Shown here in pieces: positions 5,236 through 12,857 of a DNA stretch of 64,000 nt. The DNA is from Nocardia xishanensis NBRC 101358. Lineage in GTDB: Bacteria > Actinomycetota > Actinomycetes > Mycobacteriales > Mycobacteriaceae. The number at the start of each line of letters is the position of its first letter. Position 1 is the first letter of the stretch. The stretch spans positions 1 through 64,000 of the forward strand of contig NZ_BDCF01000038.1 of assembly GCF_001613365.1 (NCBI RefSeq), in the 5' to 3' direction. Position numbers and translations under genes: made by a program. The notes under the pieces were generated by a model. The model ran no database searches, was not told the origin of the DNA, and was given only the letters and a program-made list of their open reading frames with translations.

Positions 5236-6615
5236 GTGGTAGCCACGACCCGTCAGACCGCCGAATCGGCCGATGCCGACTCCACAGATGTAACCGCAGC
5301 ACGGCCGGTCCGCAAGGCTGCCGCCAAGAAGGCACCGGCCAAGAAGGCCGCGGCCAAGAAGGCGCCCGCGAAGAAGGCCGCGGCCAAGAAGGCCCCCGCG
5401 AAGAAGGCCGCCACCAAGAAAGCGGGCCCCGACGGCGAGCCCGGCGCCGAGGAGGCGCTGGAGGACGAGGCTCTCGATCTCGAGGATCTGGACGATCTGG
5501 AAGTCGACGAGGGCGACCTCACCGACGACGCGGACCTGGAGGACGACGCGGCCGAGGACGTCGCCGAAGACGAAGAGGCTGAAGCCGAGGGCGCCGAGGA
5601 GCCGACGGAGAAGGACAAGGCCTCCGGCGATTTCGTCTGGGACGAGGAGGAGTCCGAGGCGCTGCGCCAGGCGCGCAAGGACGCCGAGCTCACCGCCTCC
5701 GCCGACTCGGTGCGCGCCTACCTCAAGCAGATCGGCAAGGTCGCGCTGCTCAACGCCGAGGAGGAGGTCGAGCTCGCCAAGCGGATCGAGGCAGGCCTCT
5801 ACGCGGCGGAGAAGGTGCGCGAGTTCGCCGAGGCGGGCGAGAAGCTGCCCGTCGCGATGCGCCGCGATTTCAACTGGATCGTGCGCGACGGCAACCGGGC
5901 CAAGAACCATCTGCTCGAGGCCAACCTGCGACTGGTCGTGTCGCTGGCCAAGCGCTACACCGGCCGCGGCATGGCGTTCCTGGACCTGATCCAGGAGGGC
6001 AACCTCGGTCTGATCCGCGCGGTGGAGAAGTTCGACTACACCAAGGGCTACAAGTTCTCCACGTACGCCACCTGGTGGATCCGGCAGGCCATCACCCGCG
6101 CCATGGCCGACCAGGCCCGCACCATCCGCATCCCCGTGCACATGGTCGAGGTCATCAACAAGCTCGGCCGCATTCAGCGCGAGCTGCTCCAGGATCTGGG
6201 CCGCGAGCCCACCCCGGAGGAGCTGGCCAAGGAAATGGACATCACGCCGGAGAAGGTGCTGGAGATCCAGCAGTACGCGCGTGAACCGATCTCCCTCGAC
6301 CAGACCATCGGCGACGAGGGCGACAGCCAGCTCGGCGACTTCATCGAGGACTCCGAGGCCGTGGTCGCGGTCGACGCGGTGAGCTTCACCCTGCTGCAGG
6401 ATCAGCTGCAGTCGGTGCTGGAGACGCTGTCCGAACGCGAGGCGGGCGTGGTCCGGCTGCGCTTCGGCCTCACCGACGGCCAGCCGCGCACCCTCGACGA
6501 GATCGGTCAGGTGTACGGGGTCACCCGTGAGCGCATCCGGCAGATCGAGTCGAAGACCATGAGCAAGCTGCGCCACCCCAGCCGCTCCCAGGTGCTGCGC
6601 GACTACCTGGACTGA
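5236..6615 (+). CDS. sigA: Primary RNA polymerase sigma factor SigA (RpoD)
   Basis: Housekeeping sigma-70 factor, 459 aa. Residues 27-63 are a basic, Ala/Lys-rich low-complexity stretch built on a 10-residue [10 protein letters not shown] unit repeated about three times; residues about 70-130 are very acidic. The conserved part starts near residue 155 with [11 protein letters not shown] (region 1.2) and includes [18 protein letters not shown] (2.3) and [18 protein letters not shown] (2.4), the -10 recognition helix. Region 4.2 holds [18 protein letters not shown] near the C-terminus. The GTG start gives [10 protein letters not shown]. Mycobacterial SigA (Rv2703) has an equally long unconserved N-terminus. 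Confidence 0.97.
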
Positions 6616-6854: not shown

Positions 6855-8123
6855 ATGGGGATTCACGTGCTCGACATTCACCACTTCACTTACGGGTGGT
6901 TGACACCGATACTGGCCTACATCATGTCCTTCACGGGGTCGCTGCTCGGCTTGCAGTGCGCCGCGCGGGCCCGGGCGGCCGAGGGCAGGGCGGGCTGGCT
7001 GGTGCTCGCCGCGTTCGCCATCGGCGGCACCGGGATCTGGGTCATGCATTTCATTGCGATGCTTGGCTTTTCGATCCGCGGCACGGAGATCCGCTACGAC
7101 GTCCCGCTCACCCTGCTCAGCGCGGCGACCGCGATCGTGGTGGTCGGCATCGGGCTGTTCGTCGTGGTGACGCCGCGGCCGACGCTGGTCGCGCTGTTCG
7201 CGGGTGGCGCCGTCACCGGCCTCGGCGTGGCGGCCATGCACTACCTCGGCATGTTCGCGATGAAGTCGAGCGCGACCATCAGCTACGACCTGCCGACGGT
7301 GGTGCTCTCGGTCGCGATCGCGGTGATCGCGGCGACCGTGGCGCTGTGGTTCACGTTGCGGGTCAACGGTTTTCTGGCGACCACCGGCGCGGCCGGGATC
7401 ATGGGTCTGGCCGTGTGCGGCATGCACTACACCGGCATGGCCTCGATGCACGCGCACCACGCCGGGCACGACGGGCCGGTCGCGGGAACGGGCGCGATGC
7501 AGCTGCTCGCGCCGCTGATCGTCGGCATCAGCATCGTGACGATGATGCTGCTGATCGCGGTGAGCCTCACCTCGATCGAGCACGACATCGATCTGCCGCC
7601 GCTGCGCGCCGCCTCCGTCCGCCCGGCCGCCGACGACCTCGCGCCGGCCCCGCGTCCGCGTCCCGCACCCGCCCGAGCCCTCACCGAGAAATTCACGCCC
7701 GCACCACCGGCCGCCGCGCGCCCCGCCGTCGAGAACATCGCGCCCGCATCGCCGCAATTCACCGTGCGACCCGCCGCCGAGAAGCTCGCGTCCGCATCGC
7801 CGCAATTCACCGTGCGACCCGCCGCCGAGAACATCGCGCCCACACCTCCGCCGGCCACGGTGCGACCCGCACCCGAGGACATCGCGCCCGCCCCACCACC
7901 CGCCACAGTGCGCCCCGCCCCTGAGAACATCGCGTCCACACCCCCGCCGGCCGCGGTGCGACCCGCCGAGAACCTCACACCGACGCCCTCTCCGGGCACG
8001 GTCACCGCCGAGAACGTCGCGCCGACGCCTCCGCCGCGCCCGGAACCGTTCCCTGCCTCCGTCCCACCCGTCAACGGGACACCGTACTGGCCGACGACTC
8101 GCGACGTTCCGCGCCGGAAGTAG
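6855..8123 (+). CDS. MHYT-domain membrane protein with repetitive Pro/Ala tail
   Basis: 422 aa. The N-terminal 250 residues form an MHYT sensor domain of about seven membrane helices with three metal-site motifs, MHFIAMLGF, MHYLGMFAM and MHYTGMASM; MHYT domains are proposed to bind copper and sense oxygen, CO or NO. From residue 289 the protein becomes a cytosolic Pro/Ala/Glu-rich tail built from about six 16-residue units of the type RPAAENIAPTPPPATV. No GGDEF, EAL or kinase domain follows, so any output is unknown. An in-frame GTG four codons downstream (VLDIHHFTYG) has a better spaced purine-rich upstream element and is an equally likely start. Confidence 0.85.
   Translation: MGIHVLDIHHFTYGWLTPILAYIMSFTGSLLGLQCAARARAAEGRAGWLVLAAFAIGGTGIWVMHFIAMLGFSIRGTEIRYDVPLTLLSAATAIVVVGIGLFVVVTPRPTLVALFAGGAVTGLGVAAMHYLGMFAMKSSATISYDLPTVVLSVAIAVIAATVALWFTLRVNGFLATTGAAGIMGLAVCGMHYTGMASMHAHHAGHDGPVAGTGAMQLLAPLIVGISIVTMMLLIAVSLTSIEHDIDLPPLRAASVRPAADDLAPAPRPRPAPARALTEKFTPAPPAAARPAVENIAPASPQFTVRPAAEKLASASPQFTVRPAAENIAPTPPPATVRPAPEDIAPAPPPATVRPAPENIASTPPPAAVRPAENLTPTPSPGTVTAENVAPTPPPRPEPFPASVPPVNGTPYWPTTRDVPRRK
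7719..8050 (+). repeat. 48-bp coding tandem repeat in the MHYT protein tail
   Basis: Five complete 48-bp units (starting at 7719, 7767, 7815, 7863 and 7911), then a 45-bp unit and a degenerate remnant. Each encodes a 16-residue RPA-x-E-x-IAP-type segment. The Gln-Phe-Thr-Val ending is found only in the first two units, and the Pro-Ala-Thr/Ala-Val ending in the later ones, showing stepwise duplication. Confidence 0.85.
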
Positions 8124-10615: not shown

Positions 10616-10738
10616 TCGTTCAGAGTAGCCCCAGGCGGGCGAAGTCCGTCCGAAGGATCGCGCACGCGCGTGGGCCGGGGGCACGCGTCATCACTTCGGC
10701 GGACCCGCGTTTGCTCGCGCGTGTGCTGTGATGAGGCG

Positions 10739-11959
10739 GTGAAGCAGTGGCACGCGTTGTCGGCGACCGCGCAGGACGTGCTGGTCGCGTTCTTCGCGTT
10801 CGTCTTCGGGGCGTTCCTGTACCTGTCCGGGCTGTACCCGATGGCCGACGGGAGCGCCGATCCGCCGCTGGGCGTCCGGTTCGGTGTGCTCGCGCTGCTG
10901 TGCGCGGCGACGCTGCTGCGGCGGCGAGCGCCGCTGGTGACGCTGGTGGCGGGCCTGGTCCCGCTCACCATCGATCTGGTATTGGGTGCGACGGTGCCGG
11001 TGTGGCTCGTCTACTCGGATTCGATCTACGCGGCCGTCCTGTACGGCTCGCGCGCGGTGTCGCGCTCGGTGACGATCGCCTGTGCCGCGCTGACGACGGT
11101 GATCACGGTGGCCGTGTTCGCCGCGACCGGTGACTGGCGGGCGCTGGTGCTCGCCATCGCGGCGGCGGCGGCCTTCGTCGGCACGCCGATCTGGTGGGGA
11201 CTGTCGGTGCGGACGCACAAGGAGATCGCCGAGGCCGAACGCGCGCGGGCGCAGGCGATGGCGCTGGTGGCCGAGCTGGACCGGCGCGCGGCCATCGCCG
11301 ATGAGCGCAGGACGATGGCGCGCGATCTGCACGACGTCATCGCTGGACACCTCTCGGCCATCGCGATCCAGTCCGAGGCGGCGCTCGGCGAGCTGACCCG
11401 CCGGGATGCCGACCCCGTGATGGCCGGAATCCTGGGCTCGATCCGCGCCAACAGCGTCAGCGCGCTGCAGGAGATGCGCACCATGATCGGTCTGCTGCGC
11501 CGCGACGACGGAACGGAGGACGAAGCCGTCGCACCGCGCACACTGGCCCAGCTGCCGATCCTGGTGGACGCCGCCCGATCGGCGGGAACCGCGGTGCGCG
11601 TTGCGGATTCGCTCGACGGCACCCCGCTGCCCGGCGCGGTGGACCAGGCCGCCTATCGGATCATCCAGGAGGCCTTGACCAATGCGATGAAGCACGCGCC
11701 AGGTCAGCGGGTCGATATCGCGGTGCGCGCCGATCCAGCGTCACTCGACGTCACCGTCCGCAATCCCGCCCGCGCCGCGGCGGTTTCGTCGCAGCCGGCG
11801 AATTCCGCGGCGCCGCACCGCGGCCTGATGAACATGCGCGAGCGCGCCGCAGCGCTGGGCGGAAGCTTCACCGCAGGACCGGAAGCCGAAGGCTGGATGG
11901 TCCGCGCCAGGCTTCCGCTCGGCACGTCCGAGACGAGCGCCGGCGAGGCGCAGGCATGA
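10739..11959 (+). CDS. Two-component sensor histidine kinase (HisKA_3 / NarL-DesK type)
   Basis: 406 aa. An N-terminal membrane module of about five helices (residues 12-160) has no sizeable extracellular sensor. It is followed by a coiled linker and the dimerisation H-box MARDLHDVIAGHLSAI with phospho-acceptor His198, then a HATPase domain with N-box IIQEALTNAMKHAP and G-box HRGLMNMRERAAALGG. The GTG start gives VKQWHALSATAQ. The last codons (ETSAGEAQA) and the stop fall inside the first copy of a 77-bp tandem repeat that continues to just before the response regulator gene. The stimulus is unknown. Confidence 0.93.
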   Translation: MKQWHALSATAQDVLVAFFAFVFGAFLYLSGLYPMADGSADPPLGVRFGVLALLCAATLLRRRAPLVTLVAGLVPLTIDLVLGATVPVWLVYSDSIYAAVLYGSRAVSRSVTIACAALTTVITVAVFAATGDWRALVLAIAAAAAFVGTPIWWGLSVRTHKEIAEAERARAQAMALVAELDRRAAIADERRTMARDLHDVIAGHLSAIAIQSEAALGELTRRDADPVMAGILGSIRANSVSALQEMRTMIGLLRRDDGTEDEAVAPRTLAQLPILVDAARSAGTAVRVADSLDGTPLPGAVDQAAYRIIQEALTNAMKHAPGQRVDIAVRADPASLDVTVRNPARAAAVSSQPANSAAPHRGLMNMRERAAALGGSFTAGPEAEGWMVRARLPLGTSETSAGEAQA

Positions 11960-12036
11960 GCGAACGCAGTGAGCGAATCATGTGCCAGCCCCATCGGGGC
12001 ATGCACGAGACGAGTGCCGGCGAGGCGCAGGCATGA
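11956..12036 (+). CDS. Mini-ORF 1 of the repeat relay (26 aa)
   Basis: ATG overlaps the kinase stop as ATGA. It encodes a 26-residue peptide beginning [17 protein letters not shown] and ending ETSAGEAQA, the ending being identical to the kinase C-terminus. There is no separate ribosome binding site; translation would rely on re-initiation by ribosomes finishing the kinase. No known domain. It could be a coupling leader rather than a functional peptide. Confidence 0.4.
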   Translation: MSERSERIMCQPHRGMHETSAGEAQA

Positions 12037-12113
12037 GCGAACGCAGTGAGCGAATCATGTGCCAGCCCCATCGGGGCATGCCGGAGACGAGTGCCGGCGA
12101 GGCGCAGGCATGA
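12033..12113 (+). CDS. Mini-ORF 2 of the repeat relay (26 aa)
   Basis: Starts in the ATGA that ends mini-ORF 1. Its product differs from mini-ORF 1 by one residue ([11 protein letters not shown] instead of [11 protein letters not shown] at the end). It stops in the ATGA that starts mini-ORF 3. Whether it is expressed cannot be told from sequence. Confidence 0.4.
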   Translation: MSERSERIMCQPHRGMPETSAGEAQA

Positions 12114-12190
12114 GCGAACGCAGTGAGCGAATCATGTGGCAGCCCCATCGGGGCATGCCGGAGACGAGCGCCAGCGAGGCGCAGGCATGA
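12110..12190 (+). CDS. Mini-ORF 3 of the repeat relay (26 aa)
   Basis: Starts in the ATGA ending mini-ORF 2. It has Trp for Cys at position 10 ([10 protein letters not shown]) and Ser for Gly near the end (ETSASEAQA). It stops 19 bp before the response regulator start, which has its own GGAGG at 12201-12205, so the relay would deliver ribosomes close to that site. Confidence 0.4.
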
Positions 12191-12209
12191 CCCGAACGAC
12201 GGAGGCGGC

Positions 12210-12857
12210 GTGACGATTCGCGTGCTGATCGCCGACGATCACGGCGCGATTCGCGCGGGGTTGCGGATGATCCTGGACAGCGCCGAAGGCATCGAGGTGA
12301 TCGGCGAGGCCGCCGACGGGGACATCGCGGTGGCCCAGGCCAAGGCGCTGCGGCCCGATGTGGTGCTGATGGATGTGCGGATGCCCGGCGTGGACGGCCT
12401 CACCGCCACCGAACGCATCACCGCCGACGCGTTGGCGCGTGTGCTCGTCCTCACCACGTTCGACTTGGACGAGTACGTCTTTCGCGCCTTGCGCGCGGGC
12501 GCGTCCGGGTTCGTGCTGAAATCGACGTCGGGACAAGCCCTCGTCGACGCGGTGCGCGCGGTCGCCGCGGGTGACGGGGTGCTGGCGCCGGAGGTCACCC
12601 GCGCCGTGATCGCCGCGTTCGCGTCTTCTGTCGCCGGCGCCGAACCCGTCGCACCGGACGGCTTCGCCGATCTCACCGAACGCGAACGCGAGGTGCTGGA
12701 CTGCCTCGGCGATGGCCTGTCGAACGCGCAGATCGCGGCGCGACTGTTCATCGGGGAAACCACGGTGAAGACTCACGTCTCGCGCGTGCTCACCAAACTC
12801 GGTGTGCGGTCCCGGGTTCAGGCCGCCATTCTCGCGCGGCAGGCGCGCGAGCGCTGA
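12210..12857 (+). CDS. NarL/FixJ-family response regulator
   Basis: 215 aa. The receiver domain holds the acidic pair at ADDH (residues 9-10) and phospho-acceptor Asp55 in VLMDVRMPG, with Lys in FVLKSTSG. The C-terminal LuxR-type HTH contains [15 protein letters not shown] and [20 protein letters not shown]. The GTG start is preceded by GGAGG, and the receiver domain begins immediately; a longer in-frame extension only reads through the upstream repeat. It is the evident partner of the sensor kinase 250 bp upstream, separated by the tandem repeat. Target genes are unknown. Confidence 0.95.

Follow-up and report, generated by a model that had tools for sequence, protein, structure and literature searches.

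The closest described relatives of the repeats reported here are the MIRUs of mycobacteria. MIRU units are 40-100 bp long and occur at 41 places in H37Rv, and it has been proposed that they act in regulation or in differential translation (PMC2734929). According to a 2025 review, MIRUs look mobile and insert at start codons, and their internal ORF is coupled to the gene at -4 nt, an arrangement likely to keep any effect on expression small (PMC12548453). Between senX3 and regX3, the spacer known as ETR-D/MIRU04 in the M. tuberculosis complex contains a 77-bp unit whose copy number ranges from 1 to 7, and a 53-bp unit is also present in most type strains (PMC2453075, PMC4213456). It is reported that this MIRU-bearing spacer can drive regX3 expression independently of senX3 (PMC4213456). 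Statements on the range of these repeats differ: senX3-regX3 MIRUs are confined to M. leprae and the M. tuberculosis complex in one source (PMC4213456), while MIRUs are found in many mycobacteria in another (PMC12548453). Another related class is the small ORFs coupled through RTGA (ATGA or GTGA), which are over-represented in mycobacteria and in which the coupling is sometimes kept as the peptide sequence drifts (Shell et al. 2015, PMC4633059). Unlike the ORFs described below, these were found by transcript mapping and ribosome profiling, and the terms MIRU and interspersed are absent from the main text of that report (PMC4633059).

The window analyzed here is a stretch of 64,000 nucleotides from Nocardia xishanensis NBRC 101358. 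On its plus strand, a sensor histidine kinase gene (10670-11959; HisKA_3 1.5e-14, HATPase_c 7.5e-07; start codon uncertain) is followed by a response regulator gene (12210-12857), which encodes a receiver domain (Response_reg 6.9e-26) and a GerE/LuxR DNA-binding domain (GerE 3.4e-21). The first 15 named orthologues listed for the regulator all belong to Nocardia. Tandem Repeats Finder reports an array at 11921-12198 with a period of 77, 3.6 copies, 94% matches, and no indels, confirming the three full 77-bp copies that a first-pass annotation had placed between the two genes. The full units (11956-12032, 12033-12109, and 12110-12186; all on the plus strand, as are the features below) are 94-98% identical to one another. 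Each includes a 26-codon mini-ORF that opens and closes in ATGA, as had been described (11956-12036, 12033-12113, and 12110-12190), and the encoded peptides end in -GEAQA or -SEAQA. Since neighboring full units overlap by ATGA, a unit is 81 nt long from ATG to TGA and the period is 77 bp. These ATGA-to-ATGA ORFs also bear out the earlier proposal that duplication preserved both frame and coupling.

The GTG of the regulator at 12210 lies 19 bases beyond 12190, again as first noted. The chain of ATGA overlaps proposed as a relay is present, but it does not end at 12190: an 8-codon ORF (MTRTTEAA; 12187-12213) begins at the last ATGA, and its stop lies inside the GTGA of the regulator start. Because of this last overlap the reading chain is unbroken from the kinase to the regulator, with five 4-nt overlaps in series (kinase, ORF1, ORF2, ORF3, 8-codon ORF, regulator). 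Upstream, a 5'-truncated unit (11922-11959; columns 44-81 of the profile, nhmmer E 4.7e-05, at 1469-1506 of locus L001) forms the C-terminus and stop of the kinase, and about 11 C-terminal kinase residues are encoded by element sequence. The mini-ORF peptides had been said to carry the kinase's own tail. The direction is the reverse: the ETSAGEAQA tail of the kinase is columns 44-81 of the element. A Shine-Dalgarno-like GAGG is found 7 nt 5' of each of the four ATGAs, at 11945-11948, 12022-12025, 12099-12102, and 12176-12179. Each unit also has a small hairpin, GCCCC-ATC-GGGGC (11988-12000 in unit 1; 12065-12077 and 12142-12154 in units 2 and 3). The hairpin variant common to the three window units, GCCCCATCGGGGC, is in none of the 41 other full units. 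In Rfam, the region 11500-12500 has two matches at E <=1, both far under the gathering score and on the minus strand inside the kinase gene.

This locus is like ETR-D/MIRU04 of senX3-regX3 in having tandem 77-bp units between a histidine kinase and a response regulator. Several other characteristics published for MIRUs are found as well. The 77-bp unit falls within ~40-100 bp and occurs at tens of chromosomal places, and it is inserted mostly at start codons, with an internal ORF that overlaps the neighboring genes by 4 nt. Orthologous sites without the unit exist for 14 of the 22 sites queried, and tandem arrays are present at some sites (18 of 44; three units plus a partial one in the window). 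As in the small ORFs of Shell et al. (PMC4633059), the TGA that ends the element ORF shares bases with the RTG at which the next gene begins. Compared with published descriptions, the Nocardia element is like a MIRU in its architectural features. It differs from MIRU04 in its genus, in its operon (HisKA_3 kinase, GerE regulator), and in having a covarying central hairpin. The senX3-regX3 kinase and regulator belong to other classes than HisKA_3 and GerE.

The published flanking primer of ETR-D has no exact match in 401 genomes of the family and 396 Mycobacterium genomes, both being samples of larger groups, so among these no genome of the M. tuberculosis complex was found. With one mismatch it matches 1 of the 401 and 17 of the 396, with one genome common to both. 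The four primer loci that were opened are, by eye, not senX3 (one MmpL-type gene, two ATPase-like regulators, and one threonine-synthase-like gene). The presence of 77-bp arrays at kinase-regulator junctions in two genera is probably a coincidence of a common kind of target. No MIRU-type repeat of Nocardia was seen in the literature searched, whose coverage largely excludes subscription journals. The new items are the Nocardia element family and its covarying hairpin; the MIRU architecture and the idea of coupling were already published.

The element that the first-pass annotation described between the kinase and the regulator is found throughout the genome. Searching the genome with its own 240-bp array gives at least 41 matches, 40 of the 87 candidates from the first look having been scored. 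A core pattern of 21 bases, with three mismatches allowed, matches 54 times compared with 0 for the reversed control, which is far more than chance would give, and a 24-base 5' pattern with up to two mismatches matches 53 times compared with 0 for its control. Profile reading of 45 fetched loci identifies at least 64 units (44 full and 20 partial) at 44 sites, L153 being the sole fetched locus with 0 units. Three rows that had been counted twice where two loci overlap were dropped from the unit count, and both totals are lower bounds because a few further array and 5'-pattern matches were left unfetched. Being scattered through the genome, the element did not arise for the kinase-regulator operon. 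It had been anticipated that a relay would be refuted if the element were scattered elsewhere as non-coding repeats. Scattered it is, genome-wide, but mostly linked to start codons and not as plain non-coding sequence.

The link to start codons can be counted. Here an ORF is called coding-like if it has 60 codons or more and its GC by codon position resembles that of coding sequence, and "genes" at these sites are such ORFs rather than annotated ones. Of the 38 sites that could be tested at the 3' end, 29 have a coding-like ORF starting at the terminal RTG of the element. Of the 34 that could be tested at the 5' end, 17 have one that stops in the 5' RTGA, and both ends are so linked at 11 of 30. 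The background is 683 RTGA sites of the window, the array and the 1.5-kb ends being left out; 166 of these pass the downstream test, 15 the upstream test, and two both. The downstream background is high because an RTG within a gene also passes. Nine of the 38 sites fail the downstream test, including L005 (57 codons) and the window array itself, which fails because the ORF starting at its terminal ATG is the 8-codon link.

Two or more units, partial ones included, are present at 18 of the 44 sites. Identity within arrays is 0.98 (8 pairs, 6 arrays), compared with 0.87 between arrays (772 pairs). This comparison took units of 81 nt and covered six of the 18 multi-unit arrays, the other 12 having a partial or length-variant unit. 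The near identity of standard-length units within shared arrays implies that those arrays grew locally. At L011, two units are visibly diverged from each other.

Sites without the element were sought by joining the flanks of 22 sites with one RTGA left and querying three near relatives. From 14 of the 22 sites, 30 alignments span the join, and these 30 loci were fetched. Within ~20 nt of the join, 17 of the 30 alignments are free of gaps and 13 are gapped. A single ATGA or GTGA is found at the junction in the relatives; where L002 is aligned with L229, the gap made by the aligner falls inside GTGA. The base-level reading covers the sites other than L003, L004, L026, L027, L028, L142, L143, and L149, whose rows vary in spanning the join, being split by the element, or having unequal lengths (L004; L142 in G012). 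Six sites (L008, L009, L015, L016, L030, and L147) have the element in one relative but lack it in another; for example, the L008 site is occupied in G012 and empty in G072 and G027. The empty and occupied sites are a picture of precise insertion at start codons.

At three sites (L016, L018, and L030) the target is the start of a gene that is not overlapped by an upstream stop. By eye, a TA-rich -10-like stretch seems to lie just 5' of ATGA at these sites, as at leaderless genes. The element may also use leaderless start codons.

Other families of small repeats can be compared on placement and structure. Rickettsia palindromic elements are inserted in frame within protein-coding genes. This type of insertion is not what is seen here, the element being at a gene start or junction at the 14 empty sites and at 29 of the 38 start-test sites. 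REP/PATE-type elements, which IS200/IS605-like (Y1) transposases mobilize, carry palindromes at or near their ends and have a cognate Y1 transposase, whereas the covarying hairpin of the Nocardia element is central.

The kinase-regulator junction itself can be followed through 46 loci with orthologues of the regulator. Seven pairs have the same sequence, leaving 39 distinct loci, and two of these have no kinase directly upstream, leaving 37. In 33 of the 37, kinase and regulator overlap directly by RTGA. By scored spacing, 27 are at a -4 overlap, six are at -7, and one has a gap of 5 nt; the six are scored -7 because the aligned start is one codon before the true RTG, and they too are at -4 on reading. 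The spacing is 250 nt in the window, 46 nt in G072, and 29 nt in G027. The junction is empty in G012, whose regulator (95% identity) is about as close as those of G072 and G027. G072 has remnants of the unit, its 46 nt forming a 17-codon ORF from ATGA to ATGA. In G027 the bridge is lost, and the kinase ends in TAA shortly 5' of an ATG in frame with the regulator. An element-like kinase tail is also present in G072 and G027 and, by eye, in none of the last 30 bases of the other orthologues. Direct RTGA overlap is the state of this locus in most relatives, and the window array is an insertion there.

The dispersed sites, the empty sites, and the RTGA-overlapping orthologues therefore indicate a mobile element that entered at a start codon and was amplified afterwards. 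We hold with high confidence that the array is an interspersed element of MIRU type, placed at an RTGA start and amplified locally; it would act as a nearly neutral ribosome relay. Insertion at RTGA would leave intact both the stop of the upstream gene and the start of the downstream one, and it would replace the displaced ribosome-binding site. Ribosomes coming off the kinase would reinitiate at each ATGA, or GAGG would recapture 30S subunits, and the reinitiating ribosomes would travel along the mini-ORFs to the regulator. Such passage would make the insertion nearly neutral. The mini-ORF peptides would need no function of their own, and each extra unit would be one more termination-reinitiation step. 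The persistence of the element is most likely due to its restoring what it separates, namely, stop, start, ribosome-binding site, and closed reading. A ribosome relay from the kinase to the regulator is likely, judging from the order of these signals in the sequence.

The alternative with the best standing is that the array is a translationally inert spacer and that the regulator uses its own ribosome-binding site or a promoter in or near the repeats. The first part has a basis in the Shine-Dalgarno-like GGAGG at 12201-12205, 4 nt 5' of the regulator GTG, because of which a relay may not be needed. The second has a precedent in the senX3-independent expression of regX3 from its spacer (PMC4213456), but no sigma-70-like promoter or terminator was found in 11800-12300 by a scan that spans part of the range of actinobacterial promoters. 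The conservation of the unit argues against inertness. A closed short ORF is present in 41 of the 44 full-length units, and in 39 it has the standard 26 codons; full length means a profile match from the first to the last column, which leaves out the 20 partial units. Full units with lengths of 82 and 79 nt also occur, and one full unit has an internal stop. The columns that vary least in the 44 aligned units include those of GAGG and both ATGAs, with columns 67-69 invariant and column 70 nearly so.

Tests for conservation of frame are equivocal on this alternative. Among 33 units, one per site, with each change taken alone, four stops are seen in the ORF frame compared with 9.8 expected, and 0 are seen in another frame compared with 6.9 expected. 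Synonymous changes number 77 compared with 53 when all are counted, and 22 compared with 20 once each distinct change is counted once. Because stops are also depleted in another frame and the synonymous excess vanishes, variation alone does not show translation. Translation of the mini-ORFs is nevertheless likely from their architecture, and we regard the inert spacer as possible but doubtful.

In L008 (1504-1585), a unit of 82 nt has an extra A (AATCAATG) that breaks the 26-codon ORF. An internal ATG in this unit is in frame with the terminal stop, and more 82-nt matches are found among the relatives and Nocardia genomes.

Less probable still is that the array evolved for its purpose as a relay, in which the number of repeats sets the regulator/kinase ratio and slippage makes the ratio phase-variable, as the first-pass annotation had supposed. 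The unbroken ATGA/GTGA chain from kinase through regulator is consistent with this, as are the 94-98% identity of the window units, which implies that the array grew in place, and the difference of the locus between species (one 17-codon bridge in G072, none in G027). However, the same element is found at 44 sites among the loci read, and of the 37 distinct orthologous loci that have a kinase next to the regulator, 33 are without it. In addition, the frame is unaffected when whole units are lost or gained, so expression would be graded rather than switched, and on-off phase variation by unit number is unlikely. The possibility that the 26-residue peptide itself functions, as a leader peptide or small protein, is very remote: a peptide ending in EAQA is recognizable in most of the 44 full units and a synonymous excess appears if all changes are counted, but the excess is gone with distinct changes, the one peptide tried has no Pfam match at E 0.001, the related element of Mycobacterium keeps the ends with a different and shorter middle, and hairpin covariation offers another reason for conservation.

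The five-pair central hairpin is paired in 95.0% of cells in the 44 aligned units compared with 89.9% in shuffles, and covariation is also seen in a set of 66 units. Its covariation score is reached by 0 of 500 shuffles, and its number of pairs changed on both sides by 35 of 500. When the hairpin is slid by two columns, 74-78% of cells are paired, and two-sided changes number 5 and 6 compared with 7. The alignment contains two units from the window's own array. Because the slid controls come close in two-sided changes and two units are from the same array, the covariation rests on few independent events. Whole-unit RNA folds are only a little stronger than those of shuffles, with z scores of -1.26 (consensus), -1.16 (window unit 1), and -1.99 (unit 3), and the minimum-energy fold of the consensus unit does not include the small hairpin. 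Therefore only the small hairpin is claimed, on covariation. Columns 9 and 15 (e.g., 11964 and 11970 in the window), which are not part of the hairpin, also vary together: of 66 units, 51 have A-T, 10 have G-C, and 5 have A-A. This may be due to subfamily ancestry or a second constraint.

The MIRU-type element inserted at RTGA starts is widespread in Nocardia. At E <=0.001, 125 of 148 Nocardia genomes have a match, the window's own included and some matches being weak (E up to 8.3e-4). In the family sample, 18 of 201 genomes match, and 13 of them are Nocardia. The matches in five genomes of other genera are short and weak (E 1.8e-4 to 9.6e-4, 26-44 nt) and were judged to be at chance level. 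Four candidates per genome were scored for the family and six for Nocardia, so copy numbers are lower bounds.

A covariance model of the unit (R1) finds a related element in 16 of 148 Mycobacterium genomes, with a best E of 4.2e-7 under rough calibration. The assignment of this genome group (g29) to Mycobacterium is a reading from the MmpL-type gene carried. At all eight loci read (L230-L237) the element begins and ends in ATGA, and the coding-like ORF into which it leads has 253-373 codons; at five of the eight the element also follows a coding-like ORF. Six of the elements are 69 nt long and two are 68 nt (out of frame). The tandem period is 65 bp (G484 and G512). Both 65 and 77 leave a remainder of 2 when divided by 3, as ATGA-to-ATGA coupling needs. 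The Mycobacterium element is like the Nocardia unit in that the whole of R1 is matched, and its ends are ATGAGCGA (5') and GCATGA (3'). Unlike the 81-nt Nocardia unit, it has a shorter, different middle in place of the hairpin region. In L232 (~1501-1568), a Mycobacterium copy is found directly 5' of a response-regulator-like gene and 3' of a 403-codon open frame; by eye, this is perhaps another kinase-regulator junction.

A broader reading, which we put forward only tentatively, is that one non-autonomous family in Nocardia and Mycobacterium hits RTGA starts, some without an upstream overlap, carries a translation cassette and, in Nocardia, a hairpin, and makes relays. The cassette of each unit would consist of a closed mini-ORF, the GAGG ribosome-binding site, and the exit ATGA. 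The Nocardia hairpin would be structurally constrained, for mobilization or for reinitiation. Tandem growth would then give a multi-step relay, and five 4-nt handovers would lower or buffer downstream translation stepwise.

With the Nocardia element, the MIRU kind of repeat is extended beyond mycobacteria to another genus, in which numerous sites, empty and occupied, can be compared. The related Mycobacterium element ties the Nocardia and mycobacterial kinds together. Its unit arrays are a natural dosage series for ribosome passage along chained 4-nt overlaps, and the many polymorphic insertions are material for finding the mobilizing enzyme. Tandem-repeat typing loci for Nocardia could also be conceived. 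Note that MSERSERI-type N-termini and EAQA-type C-termini of Nocardia proteins can be derived from the repeat, a point to heed in annotation.

Two other tandem repeats are present in the window. At 7684-7968, a 48-bp repeat of ~6 copies lies within an ORF (6855-8123) and encodes a proline/alanine-rich stretch (e.g., APxPPxxTVRPAxEN). At 5314-5420, a 15/30/45-bp repeat, rich in AAG and GCC, could encode a lysine/alanine-rich tail.
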